Of a stretch of DNA of 64,000 bases, positions 3,127 to 63,081 are shown piece by piece (position 1 is the first letter of the stretch; the number at the start of each line of letters is the position of its first letter). Location of the stretch: NCBI RefSeq assembly GCF_037914945.1, contig NZ_CP149787.1, positions 2,790,001-2,854,000 on the forward strand, given 5' to 3'. The position numbers and the translations under genes were made by a program. Below the pieces are notes generated by a model that was not told the origin of the DNA, did not search any database, and worked only from the letters and a program-made list of their open reading frames with translations. This stretch comes from Haloterrigena sp. KLK7 (GTDB lineage Archaea; Halobacteriota; Halobacteria; Halobacteriales; Natrialbaceae).

Positions 3127-4902
3127 ATGAACGACGAGTTGCGCGAGCGCATCGAGCGCGAGGCCGAGAAGCACGCGCTGTTGAACGCCGTCAAACACGA
3201 GAGCGACGCCGATGTCGGCGCGATCATGGGGCCGCTGATGGGCGACAACCCCGACTTCCGCGAGCACGGCGACGAGATCCCGGGCATCGCCGGCGGCGTC
3301 GTCGGCCGGGTCAACGACCTCGACTACGAGGAGAAACGCGAGCGCCTCGAGGACCTCGCCCCCGAGGAACTCGCCGAGATCGAGGCCGAAGAGGAGGAAG
3401 ACGAGCACGACCTCCCGGACCTACCCAACGCCGAGGAGTACGACGAGATCCGGATGCGCGTCGCGCCCAACCCTAACGGGCCGTGGCACGTCGGCCACGC
3501 CCGGATGCCCGCCGTCATCGGCACGTACAAGGAACGGTACGACGGCTGGTTCTGCGTCCGATTCGACGACACCGACCCCGAGACGAAGCGACCCGATCTG
3601 GAGGCCTACGACGCCATCCTCGAGGACCTCGACTACCTCGGCTTCGAACCCGACGCGACCTACAGAGCCAGCGACCGCCTCGAGACCTACTACGAGCACG
3701 CCCGCGAACTGATCGAACTCGGCGGGGCCTACACCTGCTCGTGTTCGGGCGAGGAGTTCTCGGAGCTGAAGAACAGCGGCGAGCCGTGTCCCCACCGCGA
3801 GAAGGACGCCGAGACGGTCCGCGAGGAGTTCGAAGCCATGGTCGACGGCGAGTACAGCAGCGGCGAGATGGTCCTGCGGATCAAGACCGACATCGAGCAC
3901 AAGAACCCCGCGCTCCGGGACTGGGTCGGGTTCCGGATGATCGACACCCCCCATCCCCGCGAGGCGGCCAGCGAGTACCGCTGCTGGCCCATGCTCGACT
4001 TCCAGTCGGGAGTCGACGACCACCTCCTCGAGATCAGCCACATCATCCGCGGGATCGACCTGCAGGACTCCGCGAAGCGCCAGCAGTTCGTCTACGACTA
4101 CTTCGGATGGGACTATCCTGAAGTCGTCCACTGGGGCCACGTCCAGATCGACGCCTACGACGTGAAGATGAGCACGTCGACCATCGCCGAACTGATCGAG
4201 GAGGGCGAACTCGACGGCTGGGACGACCCGCGCGCGCCGACGCTCAAGAGCCTCCGCCGCCGGGGCATCCGCGGCGAGGCCATCGTCGAGGCGATGGCCG
4301 GGCTCGGCACCTCGACCAGCGACGTCGACCTCGCGATGAGTTCGATCTACGCGAACAACCGCGACCTGATCGACGAGGAGACCGACCGTCGCTTCTTCGT
4401 CCGCGAGGGCAACCAGCTGCCCATCTCCGGCGATCCGCCCGCGGAGGCGAACCCGCCGCTCCACCCCAACCACGAGGAGCGCGGTGTCCGCGAGATTCCC
4501 GTCAGCGACTCCGTGATGCTCGAGCCCGAGGACGTCCCCGAAGACGGCGAGCGGATCTGGCTCAAGGGACTGGGCTGTTTCCGGTACGCCGAGGGCGCGC
4601 TCGAGTACACGGCCGACGATATCGACGTGGTCCGCGAAGGCGCGGTCGACGTCGTCCACTGGGCCCCGGCGAGCGAGAGCGTCGACGTTCGGATGCGTAC
4701 GCCCGACGGCGACGTTCGCGGCCACGCCGAGCCCGGCGTCGGCGACCTCGCACCCGACGAGATGGTGCAGTTCGAACGGGTCGGGTTCGCGAGGATTGAC
4801 AGCGTGGCGCCACGCGCCACGGATGATTCGAGCGGACGAAGTCCGCGAGACCGTCACGACGATGAAGAAGACGAGACCGTCGTCTACTACGCGCATCCCT
4901 AG
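3127..4902 (+). CDS. gltX: Glutamyl-tRNA synthetase (GluRS, archaeal type)
   Basis: A 591-residue class I aminoacyl-tRNA synthetase charging tRNA-Glu (and, in archaea, tRNA-Gln for later amidation). The ATP-binding HIGH motif appears as HVGH at 121-124 after APNPNGPW, and the KMSKS loop as KMSTS near 346-350. A zinc-type cysteine group (CSCSG...CPH) follows the Rossmann part. The ~100-residue N-terminal helical extension and beta-barrel C-terminus fit the archaeal/eukaryotic type. Close to the C-terminus, residues ~556-578 form an insertion rich in D, R and S that is encoded by two hairpins; family members I recall go from ARID almost directly to an acidic stretch and ETVVYYAHP. The following gene is convergent. 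Confidence 0.95.
   Translation: MNDELRERIEREAEKHALLNAVKHESDADVGAIMGPLMGDNPDFREHGDEIPGIAGGVVGRVNDLDYEEKRERLEDLAPEELAEIEAEEEEDEHDLPDLPNAEEYDEIRMRVAPNPNGPWHVGHARMPAVIGTYKERYDGWFCVRFDDTDPETKRPDLEAYDAILEDLDYLGFEPDATYRASDRLETYYEHARELIELGGAYTCSCSGEEFSELKNSGEPCPHREKDAETVREEFEAMVDGEYSSGEMVLRIKTDIEHKNPALRDWVGFRMIDTPHPREAASEYRCWPMLDFQSGVDDHLLEISHIIRGIDLQDSAKRQQFVYDYFGWDYPEVVHWGHVQIDAYDVKMSTSTIAELIEEGELDGWDDPRAPTLKSLRRRGIRGEAIVEAMAGLGTSTSDVDLAMSSIYANNRDLIDEETDRRFFVREGNQLPISGDPPAEANPPLHPNHEERGVREIPVSDSVMLEPEDVPEDGERIWLKGLGCFRYAEGALEYTADDIDVVREGAVDVVHWAPASESVDVRMRTPDGDVRGHAEPGVGDLAPDEMVQFERVGFARIDSVAPRATDDSSGRSPRDRHDDEEDETVVYYAHP
4795..4881 (+). repeat. Intragenic hairpin expansion near the 3' end of gltX
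   Basis: Two hairpins sit inside the reading frame: GTGGCG-CCACG-CGCCAC at 4804-4820 and GCGGAC-GAA-GTCCGC at 4832-4846. They are separated by short aspartate-coding stretches (IDS, DDS, DDE). The decamer CGAGACCGTC occurs at 4846-4855 and again at 4872-4881 in a different reading frame, which indicates a recent local duplication. Total insertion is about 60-70 bases and keeps the frame open. Confidence 0.7.
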
Positions 4903-4958
4903 TTCGGCCCGGCGCCGACCGCACGTCGATCGGTCGGTCGGCCGGTGACGGTGGAACG

Positions 4959-5225
4959 TTACTGCGTCTCTGTCTCCGTTTCGGTTCCTGTTTCCGTCTC
5001 TGTACCCGTTTCCGGCTCCGTTCGGGCGCTCGTCTCCACGTCCGATTCGGTCGCCTCGGAGACGCGCTCGAGTTCGCTGCTGCCACACTCCGGACACGTC
5101 TCTTGCTCGCTGTGGAATCGGGTCTCGCAGTCGCGACAGCGGTAGGCAGCGCTGTCGTCGCGTGCGGCCACCGCCTCCTGCTTGAAGCGCTCGACTTTCT
5201 CGCCGAGCCGTTCGAACATGCTCAT
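4959..5225 (-). CDS. Small zinc-ribbon protein with Thr-Glu-rich tail
   Basis: An 88-residue protein read from the ATG that begins MSMFERLGEKVERFKQ. A short basic helix is followed by a single zinc ribbon, CRDC...CPECG, with 14 residues between the pairs. The last ~20 residues are a run of TET/ETG units, encoded by imperfect hexamer repeats at 4964-5020, typical of slipped-strand variation. The zinc ribbon suggests nucleic-acid or protein binding, but no specific role can be assigned. A longer upstream start would add 13 residues without support. It is convergent with gltX. Confidence 0.7.
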   Translation of the reverse strand: MSMFERLGEKVERFKQEAVAARDDSAAYRCRDCETRFHSEQETCPECGSSELERVSEATESDVETSARTEPETGTETETGTETETETQ

Positions 5226-5340
5226 AGACGGAGTACGGTCCGTGGCCGGATAAGTTGCAGTCACGACGGCGCGAATACGAATCGGAGCGCTATCGTCTCG
5301 TCCCGACCGACGCGAGAACGGTAGCGTGCGAACGCGGCGA

Positions 5341-5826
5341 TCAGAACACGAAGAGCGCGACGAGGAATCCCAGGAGGATCGTGAGGGTCAACAGCACCTG
5401 AATCGCCGTCGACGCGAGCATCCCGCCGGTCGCGTACGCCGCCGATCGGACGCTGCCGCCGGCGTCGCCACCTTGAACGAACTCGACGACGAAGACGGTC
5501 CCGAACAGCCCGGCGAGCAGCCCCAGCGGCCCGGTGACGATCATGAGGACGATGGCGACGACGGTGGCGATCGTGGTAGTGGTCCACGAGGCCCCGCCCG
5601 CCTTGGCGGCGATCGAGCCGCCGAACAGTTCCGCGACGATCGTCATGACGGCGAGGAGCGCGAGGACGGCGACCGTGAGGGTCCCGGGCTCGCTGAAGCC
5701 GGAGCCCCACCAGTAGAGCCCGAGTCCCGACAGCGAGAGCAGCCCGCCGGGGACCAGCGGGGCGACCGTTCCGACGACGCCGCCGACGAGCAGGGCGACC
5801 GCGATGATCGTGACTGCATCGACCAT
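5341..5826 (-). CDS. DUF456 family membrane protein
   Basis: A 161-residue protein, almost entirely hydrophobic, with about five transmembrane segments. Glycine-rich segments such as LVPGGLLSLSGL and GPLGLLAGLFGTVFVVEF match the DUF456 family (small integral membrane proteins with glycine-zipper-like stretches). I place the start at MVDAVTIIAVALL; the ORF extends nine residues further upstream without support. Function of the family is unknown to me. It is divergent from the SDR gene, and the ~100 bases between them must hold both promoters. Confidence 0.75.
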   Translation of the reverse strand: MVDAVTIIAVALLVGGVVGTVAPLVPGGLLSLSGLGLYWWGSGFSEPGTLTVAVLALLAVMTIVAELFGGSIAAKAGGASWTTTTIATVVAIVLMIVTGPLGLLAGLFGTVFVVEFVQGGDAGGSVRSAAYATGGMLASTAIQVLLTLTILLGFLVALFVF

Positions 5827-5925
5827 ACGGGGACCGACGACGGGGCCGGCCAAAGGTGTACGGCCTTCGACCGGTCAGCGCTCGGCCACCGGTATCGTTA
5901 CCTCCCGGCGTCCGAATCGACGGGT

Positions 5926-6669
5926 ATGAGCGAGACGCGCGGGGCGATCATCGTCGGCGGCTCCTCCGGCATCGGCGAAGCGCTGGCTCGAGCGCTCGCC
6001 GACGAGGGATACGCGATCGGGCTGGCGGCCCGACGGACGGAACGCATGCAAGAGATCGGTGCCGCGTTGCCGACCGACGCCTCCGTCGCGACGATGGACG
6101 TCACCGATACCGCAGACGCCCGCGAGGGCTTCTTCGAACTCGCCGCGGCGATGCCGTCGGTCGACGTGGTCGTCATCAGCGCCGGCACCGCGGCGATGAA
6201 CCCGGACCTCGAGTGGGAGTCCGAACGGGAGACGATCGACGTCAACGTCCGCGGGTTCACGGCGATCGCAACCGCCGCGATGGAGTACTTCGAGTCGACG
6301 CCCGACCACGCGCGAGCCGGAGACGGCCACCTCGTGGGCATCTCCTCGGTCGCGGCCCACTTCGGGGTCGGCGGCGTGCAGGCGTACAACGCCTCGAAAG
6401 CGTTCGTCTCGACGTACCTCGAGGGACTGCGGGCGCGACAGGCCGATCGCGACGCGGACGTGACGATCACGACCGTCGAACCGGGCTTCGTCGACACCGA
6501 ACTCTCGATGGGCGGCTTCTGGGAGTGCTCGCCGGAAACGGCCGCCGCACAGATCGCCCGCGCGATCCGCGAGCGACGGACCCACGTCTACGTCACGCGG
6601 CGCTGGCGGCTCGTCGCGTGGGTCCTGAAAGCGACGCCCGAGTCGGTACTGCGGCGACTGCTCTCCTGA
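5926..6669 (+). CDS. Short-chain dehydrogenase/reductase (SDR)
   Basis: A 247-residue classical SDR. The nucleotide-binding motif is VGGSSGIGEALARAL near residues 9-24, the catalytic Ser is in GISSVAAH and the Tyr/Lys in YNASK near 150-155. These features support an NAD(P)-dependent oxidoreductase acting on an unknown alcohol or ketone. The ATG at 5926 gives the standard short N-terminus; a 200-residue upstream extension in the same frame reads through the divergent DUF456 gene and is a shadow. The C-terminal segment with RRWRLVAWVLKATPESVLRRLL is hydrophobic and may contact the membrane. Confidence 0.9.
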   Translation: MSETRGAIIVGGSSGIGEALARALADEGYAIGLAARRTERMQEIGAALPTDASVATMDVTDTADAREGFFELAAAMPSVDVVVISAGTAAMNPDLEWESERETIDVNVRGFTAIATAAMEYFESTPDHARAGDGHLVGISSVAAHFGVGGVQAYNASKAFVSTYLEGLRARQADRDADVTITTVEPGFVDTELSMGGFWECSPETAAAQIARAIRERRTHVYVTRRWRLVAWVLKATPESVLRRLLS

Positions 6670-6756
6670 CCCCTCGCAGAGAGTGCTCCCGACCGTTCGC
6701 GGCGAATCGTTCACCGCCACCGTAATCGGCTAAGGGACGCGGCGCGGAGAACGACC

Positions 6757-7821
6757 ATGAAGTTCACGCCAGGACCGACGGCGGTTCCGCCGGCGGTCAG
6801 GGAGGCGATGGCCGAGGAACAGCCGAACCCAGACGTCGATCCCGCGTTCGCGGAGCGCTACCAGGCGCTCTGCGAGGACCTCGCCGACGTCTACGACACC
6901 GACCACGACGTCGTCGTCCCCGGCGGCGAGGGCATTCTGGGCCTCGAGGCGGCGATCGCCTCGCTGGTCGCGCCCGGCGACCGGGTGCTCTGTATTTCGA
7001 ACGGGCTCTACGGCGACGGGTTCGCGGACTTCGTCGAGTCCTACGGCGGCGAGGCCGAACTCGTCTCGGCGCCCTTCGACGAACCGCTCGACCTCGAGGC
7101 CGTCGAACGTGCGCTCGAGGACGCCGAAAACGACGGCGAACCGTTCGAACTGGCGACGATGGTCCACTGCGAGACGCCGACGGGGACGCTCAACGATCTC
7201 GATCCCATTCTGGACCTGCTCGAGGAACACGACGTGCCGAGCGTCGTCGACGCCGTCTCGTCGCTCGGCGGGACGCCGGTCCCGACCGATCGGATCGACG
7301 TCTGTCTCGGGGCGTCCCAGAAGTGTTTCAGCGCGCCGCCGGGGCTGACCACCGCCGCGATCAGCGACCGGGCCTGGGAGCTGATGGACGACCGCGACCC
7401 GTCCTCGCTGTACACGAACTTCCTCCCGTGGCGGGACGTCTCCGAGGAGTTCCCCTACACGCACCTGAGCGCGAACGTGGCCGCCCTCGAGGAAGCGATC
7501 GATCGCCTGCTCGAGGAGGGCCTCGAGAGCGTCTACCGGCGCCACGAGGCCGCCGCCGAGCGCTGTCGCGAGCGCGGCGCCGAACTGGGACTCGAGGTCT
7601 ATCCCGATCGGGAGCGGAGTTCCCCGACCGTGACGGCGTTTCACCTCCCGGGCGAGGCGAAGCAGGTTCAGCAGCGGGTCGCGGCGGAGGAGGACGTCGT
7701 GCTGGCGACCGGACTCGGCGAGATGGAGAACGATATCCTCCGATTCGGCCACATGGGGTACAACGCCGAGCTCGAAAAGGTCGATCGCGCGATGGACGCG
7801 CTCGAGGCCGTCCTGGAGTAG
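6757..7821 (+). CDS. Class V aminotransferase (serine-pyruvate / alanine-glyoxylate type)
   Basis: A 354-residue PLP enzyme of the small-subunit hydrogenase/alanine-glyoxylate aminotransferase family. It starts MKFTPGPTAVPP, the family's usual opening. The PLP-binding Asp/Ser region is VVDAVSSLGG and the Schiff-base lysine is in GASQKCFSAPPG near residues 185-195. The C-terminal FRFGHMG motif appears as LRFGHMGYNAE. It probably moves amino groups among alanine, serine, glyoxylate and pyruvate; the donor/acceptor pair cannot be fixed from sequence. It is convergent with tmcA, whose stop is 19 bases away. Confidence 0.88.
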   Translation: MKFTPGPTAVPPAVREAMAEEQPNPDVDPAFAERYQALCEDLADVYDTDHDVVVPGGEGILGLEAAIASLVAPGDRVLCISNGLYGDGFADFVESYGGEAELVSAPFDEPLDLEAVERALEDAENDGEPFELATMVHCETPTGTLNDLDPILDLLEEHDVPSVVDAVSSLGGTPVPTDRIDVCLGASQKCFSAPPGLTTAAISDRAWELMDDRDPSSLYTNFLPWRDVSEEFPYTHLSANVAALEEAIDRLLEEGLESVYRRHEAAAERCRERGAELGLEVYPDRERSSPTVTAFHLPGEAKQVQQRVAAEEDVVLATGLGEMENDILRFGHMGYNAELEKVDRAMDALEAVLE

Positions 7822-7839
7822 CTCGAACCGACGCCTCCG

Positions 7840-10155
7840 TCATTCCTCGCTGAACCGCTCTCGGACCTCGAGTGCCGCGTCCGTCCCGTAGCGGTCGACC
7901 AGCGGACAGACCGCGCCCCCGAGCGCGCGCATACACTGGCTCGTAGAGTGGTACTCGAGACGCTCCGCAACGGCAGCCCACGGTCGGCCCTGCAGGGCGC
8001 GCAGGACGAGCAGGCGCTCCTCGCGGCCGGTTAGATCGACGTCATCGGGATCCTCGACGAAGTATCGGACGACGAGGTCACGGAACGGGCCGGGATCGAC
8101 GTCGAACAGGCCGGGGCCGTAGGCCGCGCCGGCGACGATGCGCCAGTCGTGAGCCGAGAGAGCGAGCTCCGGGGCCGCGTCGGCGTCGACCGACCGAAGC
8201 ACCGCACGGGCGACGTCCGGCTCGAGGTCCGAGAGTGCGTCCGTACAGAGCGCGGGGAACCGGCGGGCGAACCAGTCGGCGTGGCGGTCGTGGAGTTCGG
8301 TTCCCGAATCGCTCGTCGGCGCGAGCATGAGCGCCGAGTACTCGCCGCTGGCGTCGTTTCGGGTCGTCGAGAGGTGGACCGCGCGGTAGCCGTTGTCGCG
8401 CCAGAACTCGAGGAGGCCAGGCGTGGCGCCGAAGCCGGTTCCCAGCCAATCGACCGCGGACTCGAATTCCTCGCGAACGCGCTCGAGCAGGTGCGAGCCC
8501 AATCCTCGAGAGCGGGCCGCGTGGTGGGTCGCGATGCGGACGACGCGGAGGCCCGCTGGCTCGCTGGCGGCCTCGTCGCGCAACTGACTGGTGAGGACGT
8601 CCGGAAGCATGTTCCCCCGGACCCGGCCGCCTTCGTACATCATCGCGCGCGTCTCGGGCGGGAGGGTCCCCTCGCGAGCCAGCAGTGCGACGCTGACGAC
8701 GTGGCCGTCGTGAACCAGCGCGCGGGCCTCGAGGTTGGGCGCGTCGAGCAGTCGCGCGAGGTCGTTGGGCTCGGTGCGATAGTGAGCGAGGACGAGCAGG
8801 CCGAACGCCTCCCGGAGCAGCGTCTCGTCCGCGAGGAGGGCGTCGGGCTCGAGGGTGCGGTACTCGACCGTTTCGGGCGTCGCGTCGGCGACCAACGACT
8901 CGACCGGCGGGCGAGCGTCGAGCAAGAGGGCCCGAAACGCCCAGACCTCGACGGGGTCGCCCGCCGCGTAGCGGATCGGGTCGACGAGCGTGCGTTCGAC
9001 CACCTCGTGGTCGCTCTCGGCGAGTCGGTCCCGGAATCGGACCGAGAAACCGCGACCGGCCCCCTCGTAGCCGTGGATCGTCGTCGCGAACGCGACGCGG
9101 TCGGCCGCGAGCAGCGACTCGAGCCTCGAGACCGGCAACGCGGCGGCCTCGTCGACGACGACGACGTCCGCGGCCCCGAGCCGGTCGCTCTCGACGGCGT
9201 CCGCTGGCTCGAGGAACCGAACCACGCCGCCGGCGGCCGTCTCGATCCGCCGGGAGTCGATCGTCGCCTCGATCTCGAGCGTCTCCAGCAGTTCGCCGAC
9301 GCGGTCGAAGACCTCCGCGGCGTTTCGCCTTCGCGGGGCGGTGACGAGCACGTCCAGCCCGTCGGCAGCGAACGCACCAGCGGCCAGTCCCGCCGCGCTC
9401 GATTTGCCGCGGCCGCGGTCGGCCTCGAGGACGACGGCTCGCCTGCGGTCGTGGCGGTCCGGGTCGTCGCCCTCCCCGACGTTCGGTCCGTCTCCGCCGG
9501 CCTCGAGCAGCGATTCGAACGCGGCGACCGCCTCGACCTGATCGGCCGTGAGACAGGCCTCGTACGCGGCGGCCGGAAACCGGTGATCGGACGGCGGCGT
9601 CGGCGCAGCGGAGTCACGTATCCGCGGCGCGGGGTCCGTCAGTCCGTCGTCGACGATCCGGTCGGTCTCGCGGTCGAGGTCGACGATTCCGATTCCGCGA
9701 TGTTCGCGGAGCGTCTCGACGAGTCGCCGTCGGAACCGGCCCGTCACGTCCGACAGCGAGAACGGGGGGACGGCGAGCGACTCGTCGAACGCGCCGCGAC
9801 GGTCGGGCCAGTCCTCGAGCGACGGCGTCAGCAGGACCAACAGGCCGCCGCCGTCGACCGCACCGACCACCGCTCCGAGCGCGTTCGGCCGGAGCCCCTC
9901 GTGGGCGTCGAGCGCGATCACGTCTCGCGTCGTCCCGAGGAGTTCCCGTGCGTTCGCCTGCGGGAGGCGTTCACAGCGGAGGCGATCCTCGGGGCCGACG
10001 AGCGCGGTGCCGGTGATCGCGACGGGAAGGGCGTCGAGGATCGACTCGAGGGCGTCGTACCCGCGCTCTCGGTCACCGGCCAGGACGAGGACGCGTCGCT
10101 CGTCGACCGCCGTCGCCTCCTCGAACAGGGCTATCGCACCCCTCTCGACGATCAT
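7840..10155 (-). CDS. tmcA: tRNA(Met) cytidine acetyltransferase TmcA
   Basis: A 771-residue enzyme that N4-acetylates cytidine (wobble C34 of elongator tRNA-Met in bacteria; archaeal homologues act more widely on RNA) using acetyl-CoA and ATP. Order: N-terminal DUF1726-like domain, RecA-like helicase with Walker A in EADRGRGKSSAAG near residue 250, GNAT acetyltransferase with RIATHHAARSRGLGSHLL near 540-560, and a C-terminal tRNA-binding part. I start at MIVERGAIALFEEA; an upstream extension of 34 residues lacks family character. A decayed partial copy of this gene lies at 11190-11420, on the far side of the lipoprotein gene. Confidence 0.92.
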   Translation of the reverse strand: MIVERGAIALFEEATAVDERRVLVLAGDRERGYDALESILDALPVAITGTALVGPEDRLRCERLPQANARELLGTTRDVIALDAHEGLRPNALGAVVGAVDGGGLLVLLTPSLEDWPDRRGAFDESLAVPPFSLSDVTGRFRRRLVETLREHRGIGIVDLDRETDRIVDDGLTDPAPRIRDSAAPTPPSDHRFPAAAYEACLTADQVEAVAAFESLLEAGGDGPNVGEGDDPDRHDRRRAVVLEADRGRGKSSAAGLAAGAFAADGLDVLVTAPRRRNAAEVFDRVGELLETLEIEATIDSRRIETAAGGVVRFLEPADAVESDRLGAADVVVVDEAAALPVSRLESLLAADRVAFATTIHGYEGAGRGFSVRFRDRLAESDHEVVERTLVDPIRYAAGDPVEVWAFRALLLDARPPVESLVADATPETVEYRTLEPDALLADETLLREAFGLLVLAHYRTEPNDLARLLDAPNLEARALVHDGHVVSVALLAREGTLPPETRAMMYEGGRVRGNMLPDVLTSQLRDEAASEPAGLRVVRIATHHAARSRGLGSHLLERVREEFESAVDWLGTGFGATPGLLEFWRDNGYRAVHLSTTRNDASGEYSALMLAPTSDSGTELHDRHADWFARRFPALCTDALSDLEPDVARAVLRSVDADAAPELALSAHDWRIVAGAAYGPGLFDVDPGPFRDLVVRYFVEDPDDVDLTGREERLLVLRALQGRPWAAVAERLEYHSTSQCMRALGGAVCPLVDRYGTDAALEVRERFSEE

Positions 10156-29727: not shown

Positions 29728-29802
29728 GCTCCGTTGGTGTAGTCCGGCCAATCATATTGCCCTCTCACGGCAATGACCAGGGTTCGAATCCCTGACGGAG
29801 CA
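29728..29802 (+). tRNA. tRNA-Glu (CUC)
   Basis: A complete cloverleaf. The acceptor arms are GCTCCGT and ACGGAGC. The anticodon stem TTGCC/GGCAA holds the loop CTCTCAC, giving anticodon CUC. The T-arm is AGGG-TTCGAAT-CCCT. The discriminator base is A, CCA is not encoded and there is no intron. It reads the GAG codon, dominant in this GC-rich genome. A degenerate copy of its 3' end lies at 29893-29913. Confidence 0.95.
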
Positions 29803-29892
29803 CTTCTTCGCGAACAACTTCGTGAGCCGAGAATACGATCCTGAGTTTGAATTAGACAAGTCGAGCGCAGCGAAGCGAGTACGTCTGGGCGC

Positions 29893-29913
29893 GATTCGAA
29901 TCTGACGGAACAG
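29893..29913 (+). repeat. Degenerate copy of the tRNA-Glu 3' end
   Basis: GATTCGAATC-TGACGGAACA matches the tRNA's GGTTCGAATCCCTGACGGAGCA except for two substitutions and a two-base deletion. Between it and the tRNA are a TCGCGAA/TTCGTGA hairpin (about 29806-29823), a weak inverted T-arm-like GTTTGAATT, and a region flanked by AGAC/GTCT. The order of parts parallels the better-preserved arrays after tRNA-Ser and tRNA-Leu. Confidence 0.65.
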
Positions 29914-45354: not shown

Positions 45355-45644
45355 CCGACGGCCACCTGATTACAATCGAGTTCCATGTTAGCTAGTGGTA
45401 GTATCGATTTCGCTCCGATTTCGATAAACGGTATGCTTGCGAGTGACATGGTACCGTCCGGCGCTCGAGTCGTCACCGAGCGAAGTCGCTCGCAGTCACC
45501 GACGGGCCGGCGACGGGTCTCGAGCGCAAAGATTGATTTCAGTTGCTACCGTGCGCGCTCGGCTGAAAAATCGGCGATCGGACTCGAGTCGACGGATAGC
45601 GAGCGGAAACCCGGACGACTCACCGGCTCGAGGCGACCGGAGGG
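45355..45644. other. Intergenic, hairpins only
   Basis: Upstream of the Fe-S gene and downstream of the tRNA-Ser tail array. It contains a CGAGCGA-AG-TCGCTCG hairpin near 45477-45492. ORFs here are short, arginine/serine-rich shadows. The Fe-S gene promoter is probably in the AT-rich 45385-45435. Confidence 0.45.
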
Positions 45645-45666
45645 CGAGAGTGAGGTTCGAATCACG
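45645..45666 (-). repeat. tRNA-Ser tail, degenerate copy 3
   Basis: On the plus strand CGAGAGTGAGGTTCGAATCACG, aligning with copy 2 (CGAGAGGGAGATTTGAACCACG) at 18 of 22 positions, including CACG just beyond the part shared with the tRNA. It is followed by a hairpin with GACGCGC/GCGCGTC arms at 45671-45696. Confidence 0.6.
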
Positions 45667-45782
45667 CAACGACGCGCTCGCTTCGCAGCGCGCGTCTCCT
45701 CTCGTTCGAATTCCCGTGCCGTTCTCCACTCACGGATGCGAGCACACGCTACGCGATGCTCGCGGAATTGGTCGCGGAAAAG

Positions 45783-45803
45783 CGTCGAGAGGGAGATTTG
45801 AAC
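45783..45803 (-). repeat. tRNA-Ser tail, copy 2
   Basis: Plus-strand bases 45783-45803 equal the 3' end of tRNA-Ser (including the discriminator) at 20 of 21 positions. Next to it is a nested hairpin (CCGAG-AAC-CTGCGC-GAA-GCGCAG-AAC-CTCGG, about 45810-45839). An inverted T-arm fragment TTCAAATCT lies at 45845-45853, pairing with AGATTTGAA of this copy at 45794-45802. Confidence 0.85.
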
Positions 45804-45864
45804 CACGCCCGAGAACCTGCGCGAAGCGCAGAACCTCGGTCTAATTCAAATCTTTCGTACTGGA

Positions 45865-45963
45865 TTTCAGCAGCACGGACGGCTCGCTACGCTCACGGCT
45901 TCGCCGTTCGCGATTCCGTGGCCCTATGCGCCACGCACCGCTCGCCGTTTTGTGCTGCTGAAA
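45865..45963. repeat. Spacer unit bounded by 12-bp inverted repeats, abutting tRNA-Ser
   Basis: TTTCAGCAGCAC at 45865-45876 and GTGCTGCTGAAA at 45952-45963 are perfect inverted repeats. The right one ends two bases before the tRNA-Ser 3' end. Inside are further hairpins (ACGGC-TTC-GCCGT near 45895; CGTGG...CCACG near 45917-45935). The whole 99-base unit could fold into a cruciform immediately downstream of the tRNA. Confidence 0.75.
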
Positions 45964-45964
45964 A

Positions 45965-46049
45965 CGCCGAGAGGGAGATTTGAACTCCCGAGTCCGTGAG
46001 GACAGTAGATTTCGAATCTACCGCCTTGGCCGGGCTAGGCTATCTCGGC
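45965..46049 (-). tRNA. tRNA-Ser (CGA)
   Basis: A class II tRNA of 85 bases. The acceptor arms are GCCGAGA/TCTCGGC and the discriminator is G, as usual for serine. The anticodon stem GTAGA/TCTAC encloses TTCGAAA, giving anticodon CGA. There is a long variable arm and a T-arm GGGAG-TTCAAAT-CTCCC. No intron and no encoded CCA. Two further copies of its 3' end lie downstream. Confidence 0.95.
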
Positions 46050-62602: not shown

Positions 62603-62687
62603 GCGCGGGTAGCCAAGCTAGGCCAACGGCGCAGCGCTTAGGACGCTGTCCCGTAGGGGTCCGCCGGTTCGAATCCGGTCCCGCGCA
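62603..62687 (+). tRNA. tRNA-Leu (UAG)
   Basis: A class II tRNA of 85 bases. Acceptor arms GCGCGGG/CCCGCGC; anticodon stem CAGCG/CGCTG with loop CTTAGGA, giving anticodon UAG. It has a long variable arm (TCCCGTAGGGGTCC) and a T-arm CCGG-TTCGAAT-CCGG; the discriminator is A. No intron or encoded CCA. Two more copies of its 3' end follow within 260 bases. Confidence 0.95.
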
Positions 62688-62715
62688 TGAGCGAACGCAG
62701 TGAGCGAAGAGCAGG

Positions 62716-62728
62716 CCGGATTCGAACC
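62716..62728 (-). repeat. Inverted T-arm fragment 1 of tRNA-Leu
   Basis: CCGGATTCGAACC is the exact reverse complement of GGTTCGAATCCGG in the tRNA-Leu T-arm. It sits between the first and second tail copies and can pair with either. A GGAAACC/GGTTTCC hairpin (about 62731-62755) follows. Confidence 0.8.
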
Positions 62729-62756
62729 CTGGAAACCGAACGTAGTGAGGTTTCCT

Positions 62757-62781
62757 CCGGTTCGAATCCGGTCCCGCGCAT
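62757..62781 (+). repeat. tRNA-Leu tail, copy 2 (perfect)
   Basis: All 25 bases equal 62664-62688, that is, the T-arm, 3' acceptor strand, discriminator and one following base of tRNA-Leu. The two start 93 bases apart. A perfect match indicates a recent event or strong maintenance. Confidence 0.95.
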
Positions 62782-62783
62782 TG

Positions 62784-62863
62784 TCTGCGAATCGTAGATT
62801 CGCAGGCCAGCAAATCTCTGATTTGCGCTGCTGTCGCGAGCAACTCCGCGAGCGACAGCAATC
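62784..62863. repeat. Three consecutive hairpins in the tRNA-Leu tail array
   Basis: CTGCGAATC-GTA-GATTCGCAG, then GCAAATC-TCT-GATTTGC, then a longer pair TGCTGTCGC...GCGACAGCA. They lie directly after tail copy 2. Two have 3-base loops, like the hairpins in gltX, the histidine kinase and the region before gltX. Confidence 0.8.
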
Positions 62864-62868
62864 GCCGA

Positions 62869-62880
62869 CCGATTCGAACG
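62869..62880 (-). repeat. Inverted T-arm fragment 2 of tRNA-Leu
   Basis: CCGATTCGAACG, close to the reverse complement of the T-arm core. It is followed by a GAAGACG...CGTCTTC stem and then tail copy 3, repeating the order of the first unit. Confidence 0.65.
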
Positions 62881-62928
62881 AGAGAAGACGCGCGCAGCGA
62901 CCGACGGGAGCGAGCACGTCTTCGCGTT

Positions 62929-62948
62929 GTTCGAATCCGGTCTCGCGC
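62929..62948 (+). repeat. tRNA-Leu tail, copy 3
   Basis: GTTCGAATCCGGTCTCGCGC matches the tRNA 3' end at 19 of 20 positions. It ends the array; after it the sequence returns to ordinary intergenic DNA. Confidence 0.85.
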
Positions 62949-63081
62949 CGCGCCTCTGACTGATCACAGAAGAAATCCGACAGGAGCCTCGAGTACCTCC
63001 GAGAATCCCAACCGAAGACGGCCCCAAGCCGAAGCGATATCGCTCGAGCACCGAACCGCGACGTCACGGGTTTCGAAGCCG

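Follow-up and report, generated by a model that had tools for sequence, protein, structure and literature searches.

Many tRNA genes of haloarchaea are followed at their 3' ends by short, gene-less units that form a haloarchaea-wide family, of which the array behind tRNA-Ser(CGA) in Haloterrigena sp. KLK7 is one instance in its genome and in the class. The units are oriented, are matched to their own isoacceptor, are present or absent as blocks bounded by copies of the tRNA tail, and are stacked with the least-decayed copy next to the tRNA. We see about an even chance that they are non-autonomous and are inserted site-specifically at tRNA 3' ends, probably via a folded single-stranded DNA site. 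The 3' ends of tRNAs are classic docking sites of mobile DNA, and here about half of the tRNAs carry stacked, matched units. If mobile, the units would be among the smallest site-specific elements known and would point to an integron-like pathway of recombination through single-stranded DNA in archaea; they would account for many tRNA-tail fragments in haloarchaeal genomes, and their arrays would naturally document the order in which units were inserted beside each tRNA. A search of the open-access literature returned no description of these units.

The window, by which we mean the whole stretch of DNA analysed (64,000 nt; contig NZ_CP149787.1, positions 2,790,001 to 2,854,000), contains the following features at tRNA-Ser(CGA):

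45965-46049, minus strand: tRNA-Ser(CGA), the docking gene (ARAGORN; Rfam RF00005)
45965-45984, minus strand: proximal tail P, T-loop to 3' end, within tRNA-Ser(CGA)
45865-45963, minus strand: hairpin H1 of unit 1, a 99-base segment with perfect 12-bp arms, single copy in the genome
45845-45856, minus strand: S' of unit 1, an inverted copy of the T-loop/T-stem of tRNA-Ser(CGA)
45803-45844, minus strand: core (nested) hairpin of unit 1, TTAGACCGAGgttCTGCGC..GCGCAGgttCTCGGGCGTGG
45783-45802, minus strand: distal tail copy D1 of unit 1, 19/20 to P (1 mismatch)
45716-45782, minus strand: decayed H1 region of unit 2 (from sequence)
45705-45715, minus strand: inverted T-loop copy of unit 2
45662-45704, minus strand: core hairpin of unit 2, ending in CGTGA (from sequence)
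45642-45661, minus strand: distal tail copy D2 of unit 2, 5 edits in 20

An earlier note on this DNA had described an ordered array behind this tRNA, with copies of the tRNA tail, a T-arm fragment in inverted orientation and a hairpin unit bounded by inverted repeats, and all of these were located. The 12-bp ends that it reported are perfect, the arms TTTCAGCAGCAC (45865-45876) and GTGCTGCTGAAA (45952-45963) being 100% complementary and 75 nt apart, and the exact pair in inverted orientation, sought at a spacing of 62-90 nt, occurs at one place in the 4.64-Mb genome, namely at tRNA-Ser(CGA), which excludes a dispersed element with these ends. The 99-base hairpin itself exists, but it accounts for no more than the first half of a larger unit made up of H1, the inverted T-loop, the core and the tail. 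As single-stranded DNA, unit 1 folds into exactly H1 and the core hairpin (z = -5.2 against shuffles), and unit 2 repeats the same series in decayed form. In an Rfam search of the locus the tRNA alone was matched, all other matches falling far under the cut-off. A 66-bp palindromic stretch within H1 (window 45883-45948) belongs to a second, dispersed hairpin family, with further copies in the genome and in congeners, some of them not near tRNAs (such loci include L002, L007, L008, L024, and L026).

The layout of the Ser units recurs at both other tRNAs of the window, with two units at tRNA-Leu(TAG) and a single decayed one at tRNA-Glu(CTC):

62603-62687, plus strand: tRNA-Leu(TAG), the second array-bearing tRNA of the window
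62688-62780, plus strand: Leu unit 1; inverted copy 62715-62726, tail copy 62761-62780 (20/20)
62781-62949, plus strand: Leu unit 2; inverted copy 62868-62878, tail copy 62930-62949 (2 edits)
29728-29803, plus strand: tRNA-Glu(CTC), the third tRNA of the window
29804-29912, plus strand: Glu unit, single and decayed; tail copy 29895-29912 (3 edits)

Beyond the window, similarity searches in the same genome and in five congeners repeatedly matched tRNA flanks, and the flanking sequences of each of the 48 tRNAs in the genome itself were listed. A unit was scored where both an inverted and a direct copy of a tRNA's own tail were present, and searching with another isotype's tail served as the null. 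They lie downstream of 23 of the 48 tRNAs in the genome itself and of 61 of the 113 tRNAs sampled in the congeners, compared with null means of 3.7 and 8.4, respectively, and the same detector found none upstream of the 161 tRNAs of the six genomes. A strict pattern (GATTYGAA-N24-54-GTGGTTCRAATC) was present in 316 of 391 Halobacteria genomes, corresponding to 79 of 86 genera (among them Natrinema, Halorubrum, Haloarcula, Natrialba, Halorhabdus, and Halobacterium), and in 0 of 312 genomes of other Halobacteriota; the reversed-pattern control likewise gave 0. Four matches from clearly different groups in the scan of named genomes were counted as chance. In the other loci that were fetched, 136 of 163 strict matches lie at most 700 nt 3' of a tRNA on the same strand, and several of the others are at locus edges. 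At one haloarchaeal locus (L091), a tRNA-Lys-like gene that was not called by ARAGORN is found on the minus strand just upstream of a unit; it seems to be interrupted at the anticodon by about 50 nt of inserted sequence, which may be an intron.

Read outward, the tail of the tRNA is followed by H1, S' (the inverted T-loop), the core hairpin, CGTGG, and the tail copy, and units have a median length of 123 nt (97-231 nt at the 5th-95th percentile). The tail copy extends from G53 to the tRNA 3' end (N73), a span of 20-21 nt, and its borders are sharp: identity is 100% at G53, 72% at G52, and 25% at G51, and it drops again just past the tRNA end. Per position, 0-12% of tail copies mismatch their own tRNA, while permuted tRNAs give mismatches of up to 74%. 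S' covers T54 to about position 63 and differs from its own tRNA in 4% of cases at R57 (36% expected) and in 5% at the next variable position (42% expected). For inverted and direct copies alike, the match is specific to the adjacent tRNA and does not extend to tRNAs at large. When the inverted copy is followed over the whole tail, pairing past position 12 is at most weak (0.21-0.39). T-rich stretches come after the tail copies. At tRNA-Ala there are also type-2 units, in which the inverted repeat is the tRNA acceptor end (TGGACTCGCCG..CCCGGCGAGTCCA) and not the T-loop (L335, L337, and L338 at tRNA-Ala-CGC of congeners; L274, L276, and L277 at tRNA-Ala-GGC).

The core hairpin carries a motif, NNAG..CGTGG, that is common to different isoacceptors and genera. 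Its layout is conserved, running from an outer stem through a partly unpaired NN/GG step, one G-C or C-G pair and a purine mismatch to a variable stem and a variable end. The CACG common to tail copies 2 and 3, from which the earlier note had concluded that copy 3 probably arose from copy 2, is no private mark of copy 2 but the CGTGG that core hairpins carry throughout the class. Most units of the class have CGTGG ahead of the T-loop, and GTGG ends 158 of 225 cores, so that sharing it is no evidence for a descent of copy 3 from copy 2.

Comparison of orthologous tRNA flanks across the five congeners revealed that units at the same tRNA differ, are unrelated, or are missing. Congeners carry different H1 hairpins at the Ser locus, each with its own complementary stem, contrary to the earlier expectation that the 99-base segment would be present or absent as a block. 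The block gained or lost is instead bounded by two tail copies, as follows from tRNA-Ala(CGC), where two species have empty alleles (tail followed by TCAAGATTTTGTAACG; L045 and L336) and a third has a filled one (tail followed by H1-S'-core-tail and then TTAGAATTTTGTAACG; L334), although clean empty sites of this kind could be deletions between 20-bp tail copies and not insertions. In arrays of at least two units, decay of the second tail copy exceeds that of the first in 29 cases, falls short of it in 2, and equals it in 28 (p = 5e-7 for 29 versus 2); a looser count allowing 6 edits (57 versus 10) is noisy, and the stricter count is preferred. Given that distal tails are the more decayed, new units appear to arrive beside the tRNA and to age outward, which reverses the growth away from the tRNA proposed earlier, although the 29-versus-2 pattern would equally be expected if the tRNA converted the nearest tail copy.

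Additional evidence on the point of arrival comes from Haloterrigena salina, in which a decayed 3.1-kb element (L192, minus-strand coordinates 4733-7952) containing broken integrase fragments and a P-loop ATPase-like frame is located between tRNA-Val(CAC) and an intact unit. As the displaced unit directly adjoins tRNA-Val(CAC) in a congener, the position of this element suggests that new DNA enters at the tRNA end and displaces older units outward. The same species has three tRNA-Asp copies in about 600 bp (G004:C11:141783-142371), compared with two in the other congeners.

At positions where the tail and the distal copy differ, the inverted copy agrees with the tRNA in 20 cases and with the distal copy in 3, suggesting that hairpin pairing is not kept up after insertion. 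Congeners often have similar units at the same isoacceptor (23-28% of pairs), but within one genome the similarity between units of different tRNAs does not exceed background; unit lineages stay with their isoacceptor, and recent jumping between tRNAs is not indicated. In G001, the proximal and distal tails at tRNA-Ala(CGC) have a change in common that is missing from the empty congeners, a pattern that fits duplication of the host tail, or conversion, better than a tail borne by the element.

The core stems are conserved in structure, with compensatory changes in 21 both-side cells, compared with 6 in shuffled data, in each of two ungapped sets, a count reached by 0 of 500 shuffles. With RNA parameters, the tRNA-sense strand is the better-folding one in 165 of 177 cases and its complement in 12; with DNA parameters, the split is 155 versus 15. 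Apical loops are mostly C(GNA)G, forming a mini-hairpin in 99 cores, with the complementary TNC type in 19, and loops of the GNA and GNNA types are extraordinarily stable DNA mini-hairpins (PMC4686876). On the sense strand, G.T pairs in the core stems are not in excess over A.C (74 versus 75), while such an excess would be expected of RNA; together with the GNA loops, this favours a single-stranded DNA form. Loop and mismatch statistics thus provide moderate evidence that the units act as single-stranded DNA.

With regard to mechanism, site-specific insertion is likely, and single-strand recombination is a reasoned guess. Insertion would occur at the T-loop/3' end and leave the tRNA intact, and units would be lost through recombination between tail copies. 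The most plausible active form would be the tRNA-sense single strand, in which S' would pair with the following T-loop copy and generate a double-stranded attachment site on the hairpin. A putative recombinase acting in trans would then join the folded site to the T-loop of the tRNA, in the manner of XerCD with the CTXphi attP or of IntI with attC, the tRNA taking the role of attI/attB. It is possible, if on balance doubtful, that the units constitute an integron-like, gene-less, class-wide haloarchaeal system in which (i) the tRNA corresponds to attI, (ii) the cassettes carry a folded single-stranded hairpin addressed per isoacceptor, and (iii) an undiscovered host or viral recombinase is employed; the outer stem of the cassette hairpin would then be the copy of the target T-loop, and insertion would rebuild the tRNA tail. 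PF00589 proteins were found in all genomes searched, and integrases of this family are equally common in genomes without the strict pattern and in genomes rich in it; none is encoded inside the arrays read.

Alternatively, the units may be IS200/IS605-like (PATE-like) single-stranded DNA elements mobilised by a Y1 transposase (TnpA), with H1 and the core as left and right end hairpins, S' as the guide for the right cleavage site, and the T-loop as target, which we consider unlikely. Guides in IS608 lie 5' of a hairpin and pair with a site 3' of it, and S' has this guide-like arrangement. Furthermore, the hairpins are strand-specific and located near both ends without terminal inverted repeats, and the end-to-palindrome distances have a PATE-like asymmetry (about 20 nt at the 5' end and about 4 nt at the 3' end). 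However, H1 and the core are unlike each other, IS605 elements are characterised neither by 8-12 nt of pairing nor by the re-creation of a 20-nt tRNA tail, and insertion is not dispersed over 4-6 bp targets, given the 136 of 163 strict matches placed 3' of a tRNA. A Y1 transposase was not detected in the draft genomes G004 and G112 (11 and 12 strict units, respectively), TnpA numbers are alike in genomes without units and in unit-rich ones, and none of the loci read has a transposase between tail copies.

A function as RNA, whereby read-through tRNA transcripts containing H1, S', and the core act in 3' processing, termination, or regulation, on the model of the rtT RNA of E. coli tyrT, is quite unlikely. 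While the units are always on the tRNA-sense strand, fold strongly on that strand, and have T-rich stretches after the tail copies, half of the tRNAs lack them and congener orthologues carry unrelated units or none. The DNA-type GNA triloops, the lack of a G.U over A.C excess in the core stems, and the agreement of the inverted copy with the tRNA over its hairpin partner, so that pairing is not maintained, all speak against this reading, and no Rfam family was matched.

Equally improbable are scars of ordinary double-strand integrase elements (pleolipoviruses, plasmids) that integrated repeatedly and lost their bodies, leaving tails and att-flanking palindromes. Haloarchaeal SNJ2-type integrases do use tRNA 3' ends (PMC8371274, PMC7911831), and the 3.1-kb element of Htg. 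salina shows integrase fragments between a tRNA and an intact unit. Nevertheless, the SNJ2 attP comprises only 13-15 bp of the acceptor end, without an inverted T-loop hairpin, the core motif occurs in 0 of 50,697 phage records, and a two-hairpin layout kept across a class is unexpected from random decay. Template-switching during replication at stalled tRNA genes, which would create fold-back tail copies in situ without a mobile element, would agree with inverted copies matching the local tRNA, with the acceptor-end versions at tRNA-Ala, and with the lack of spread between tRNAs of one genome, but is very unlikely given borders at G53 and the tRNA end that are too sharp and a core motif common across isoacceptors and genera yet absent outside Halobacteria.

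Several other candidates were set aside. Casposon (Cas1) insertion involves terminal inverted repeats and a duplication of 14-15 bp; here the duplication is 20-21 nt from G53, and the unit ends (T-rich stretch; ..GTGG) are not mutual inverted repeats. A MITE is rejected for want of fixed terminal repeats, the outer sequences following the local tRNA instead. As for a viral vehicle, the scan of viral contigs returned 6 matches with one real unit and the phage records lacked the core motif. The one viral contig with a real unit (L113, IMG/VR, 29.6 kb) holds a tRNA-Glu and is possibly a provirus with host flank. A plasmid search gave three partial matches, none over most of the query.

Among known arrangements, the E. 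coli tyrT locus (rtT) has 178-bp tandem repeats, in which about 19 bp of the 3' end of the tRNA recur every time. Like the units described here, these are tandem units downstream of a tRNA with a copy of its 3' end in each; they differ in being confined to one locus and are not known to have an inverted copy or a conserved core hairpin common to tRNAs. SNJ2-type elements and pleolipoviruses also target the 3' end of tRNAs, where they leave a second copy of the tail on their distal side, but they are 10-20 kb in length with an integrase, and their attP is a 13-15 bp acceptor end lacking an inverted T-loop; at 97-231 nt, the units are too short to encode such an integrase. No hairpin was found in the known attP regions of pleolipoviruses. 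Directly 3' of a tRNA-Ala-GGC that lacks a hairpin unit, an SNJ2-type integrase is encoded intact (L049:407-1414, G000 C1); it shares 49% identity with the integrase of Natrinema virus SNJ2.

In the PATEs of Haloquadratum, palindromes lie near the termini, farther from the end on the 5' than on the 3' side, and the target is not duplicated (PMC3119063). These PATE (IS200/IS605) elements of haloarchaea and the units are alike in being short and non-coding, with palindromic ends, asymmetric end distances, and no terminal inverted repeats; PATEs, however, target 4-5 bp genome-wide and have no tRNA tail copies, whereas the units lie behind tRNAs. CTXphi forms its attP from an inverted pair of att copies, separated by about 90 bp, that fold together in single-stranded DNA (PMC3089051). 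This pair is paralleled by S' and the T-loop copy, both in CTXphi and other single-strand-integrating Xer elements, although CTXphi is a phage that targets dif via XerCD, and the units target tRNAs and have no phage genome.

Integron attC sites, which are used as folded single-stranded DNA, conserve their palindromic structure and hardly their sequence (PMC4792948). Integron arrays are polarised at a fixed site, as those described here appear to be, and both have (i) units ending in an imperfect palindrome of conserved shape and variable sequence, (ii) strand asymmetry via unpaired bases, and (iii) a variable terminal hairpin. An attC-like palindrome that favours structure over sequence closes each unit, as seen from the compensatory changes and the variable terminal loops. 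On the other hand, the units contain no genes, the docking site is a tRNA T-loop, and the outer stem copies the tRNA; in place of the core sites RYYYAAC/GTTRRRY they have GTTCRAATC/GATTYGAAC, which shares GTT and continues with C and not a purine. The units resemble integrons and CTXphi in their working parts, but without the integron core-site consensus and without an integrase inside the arrays read.
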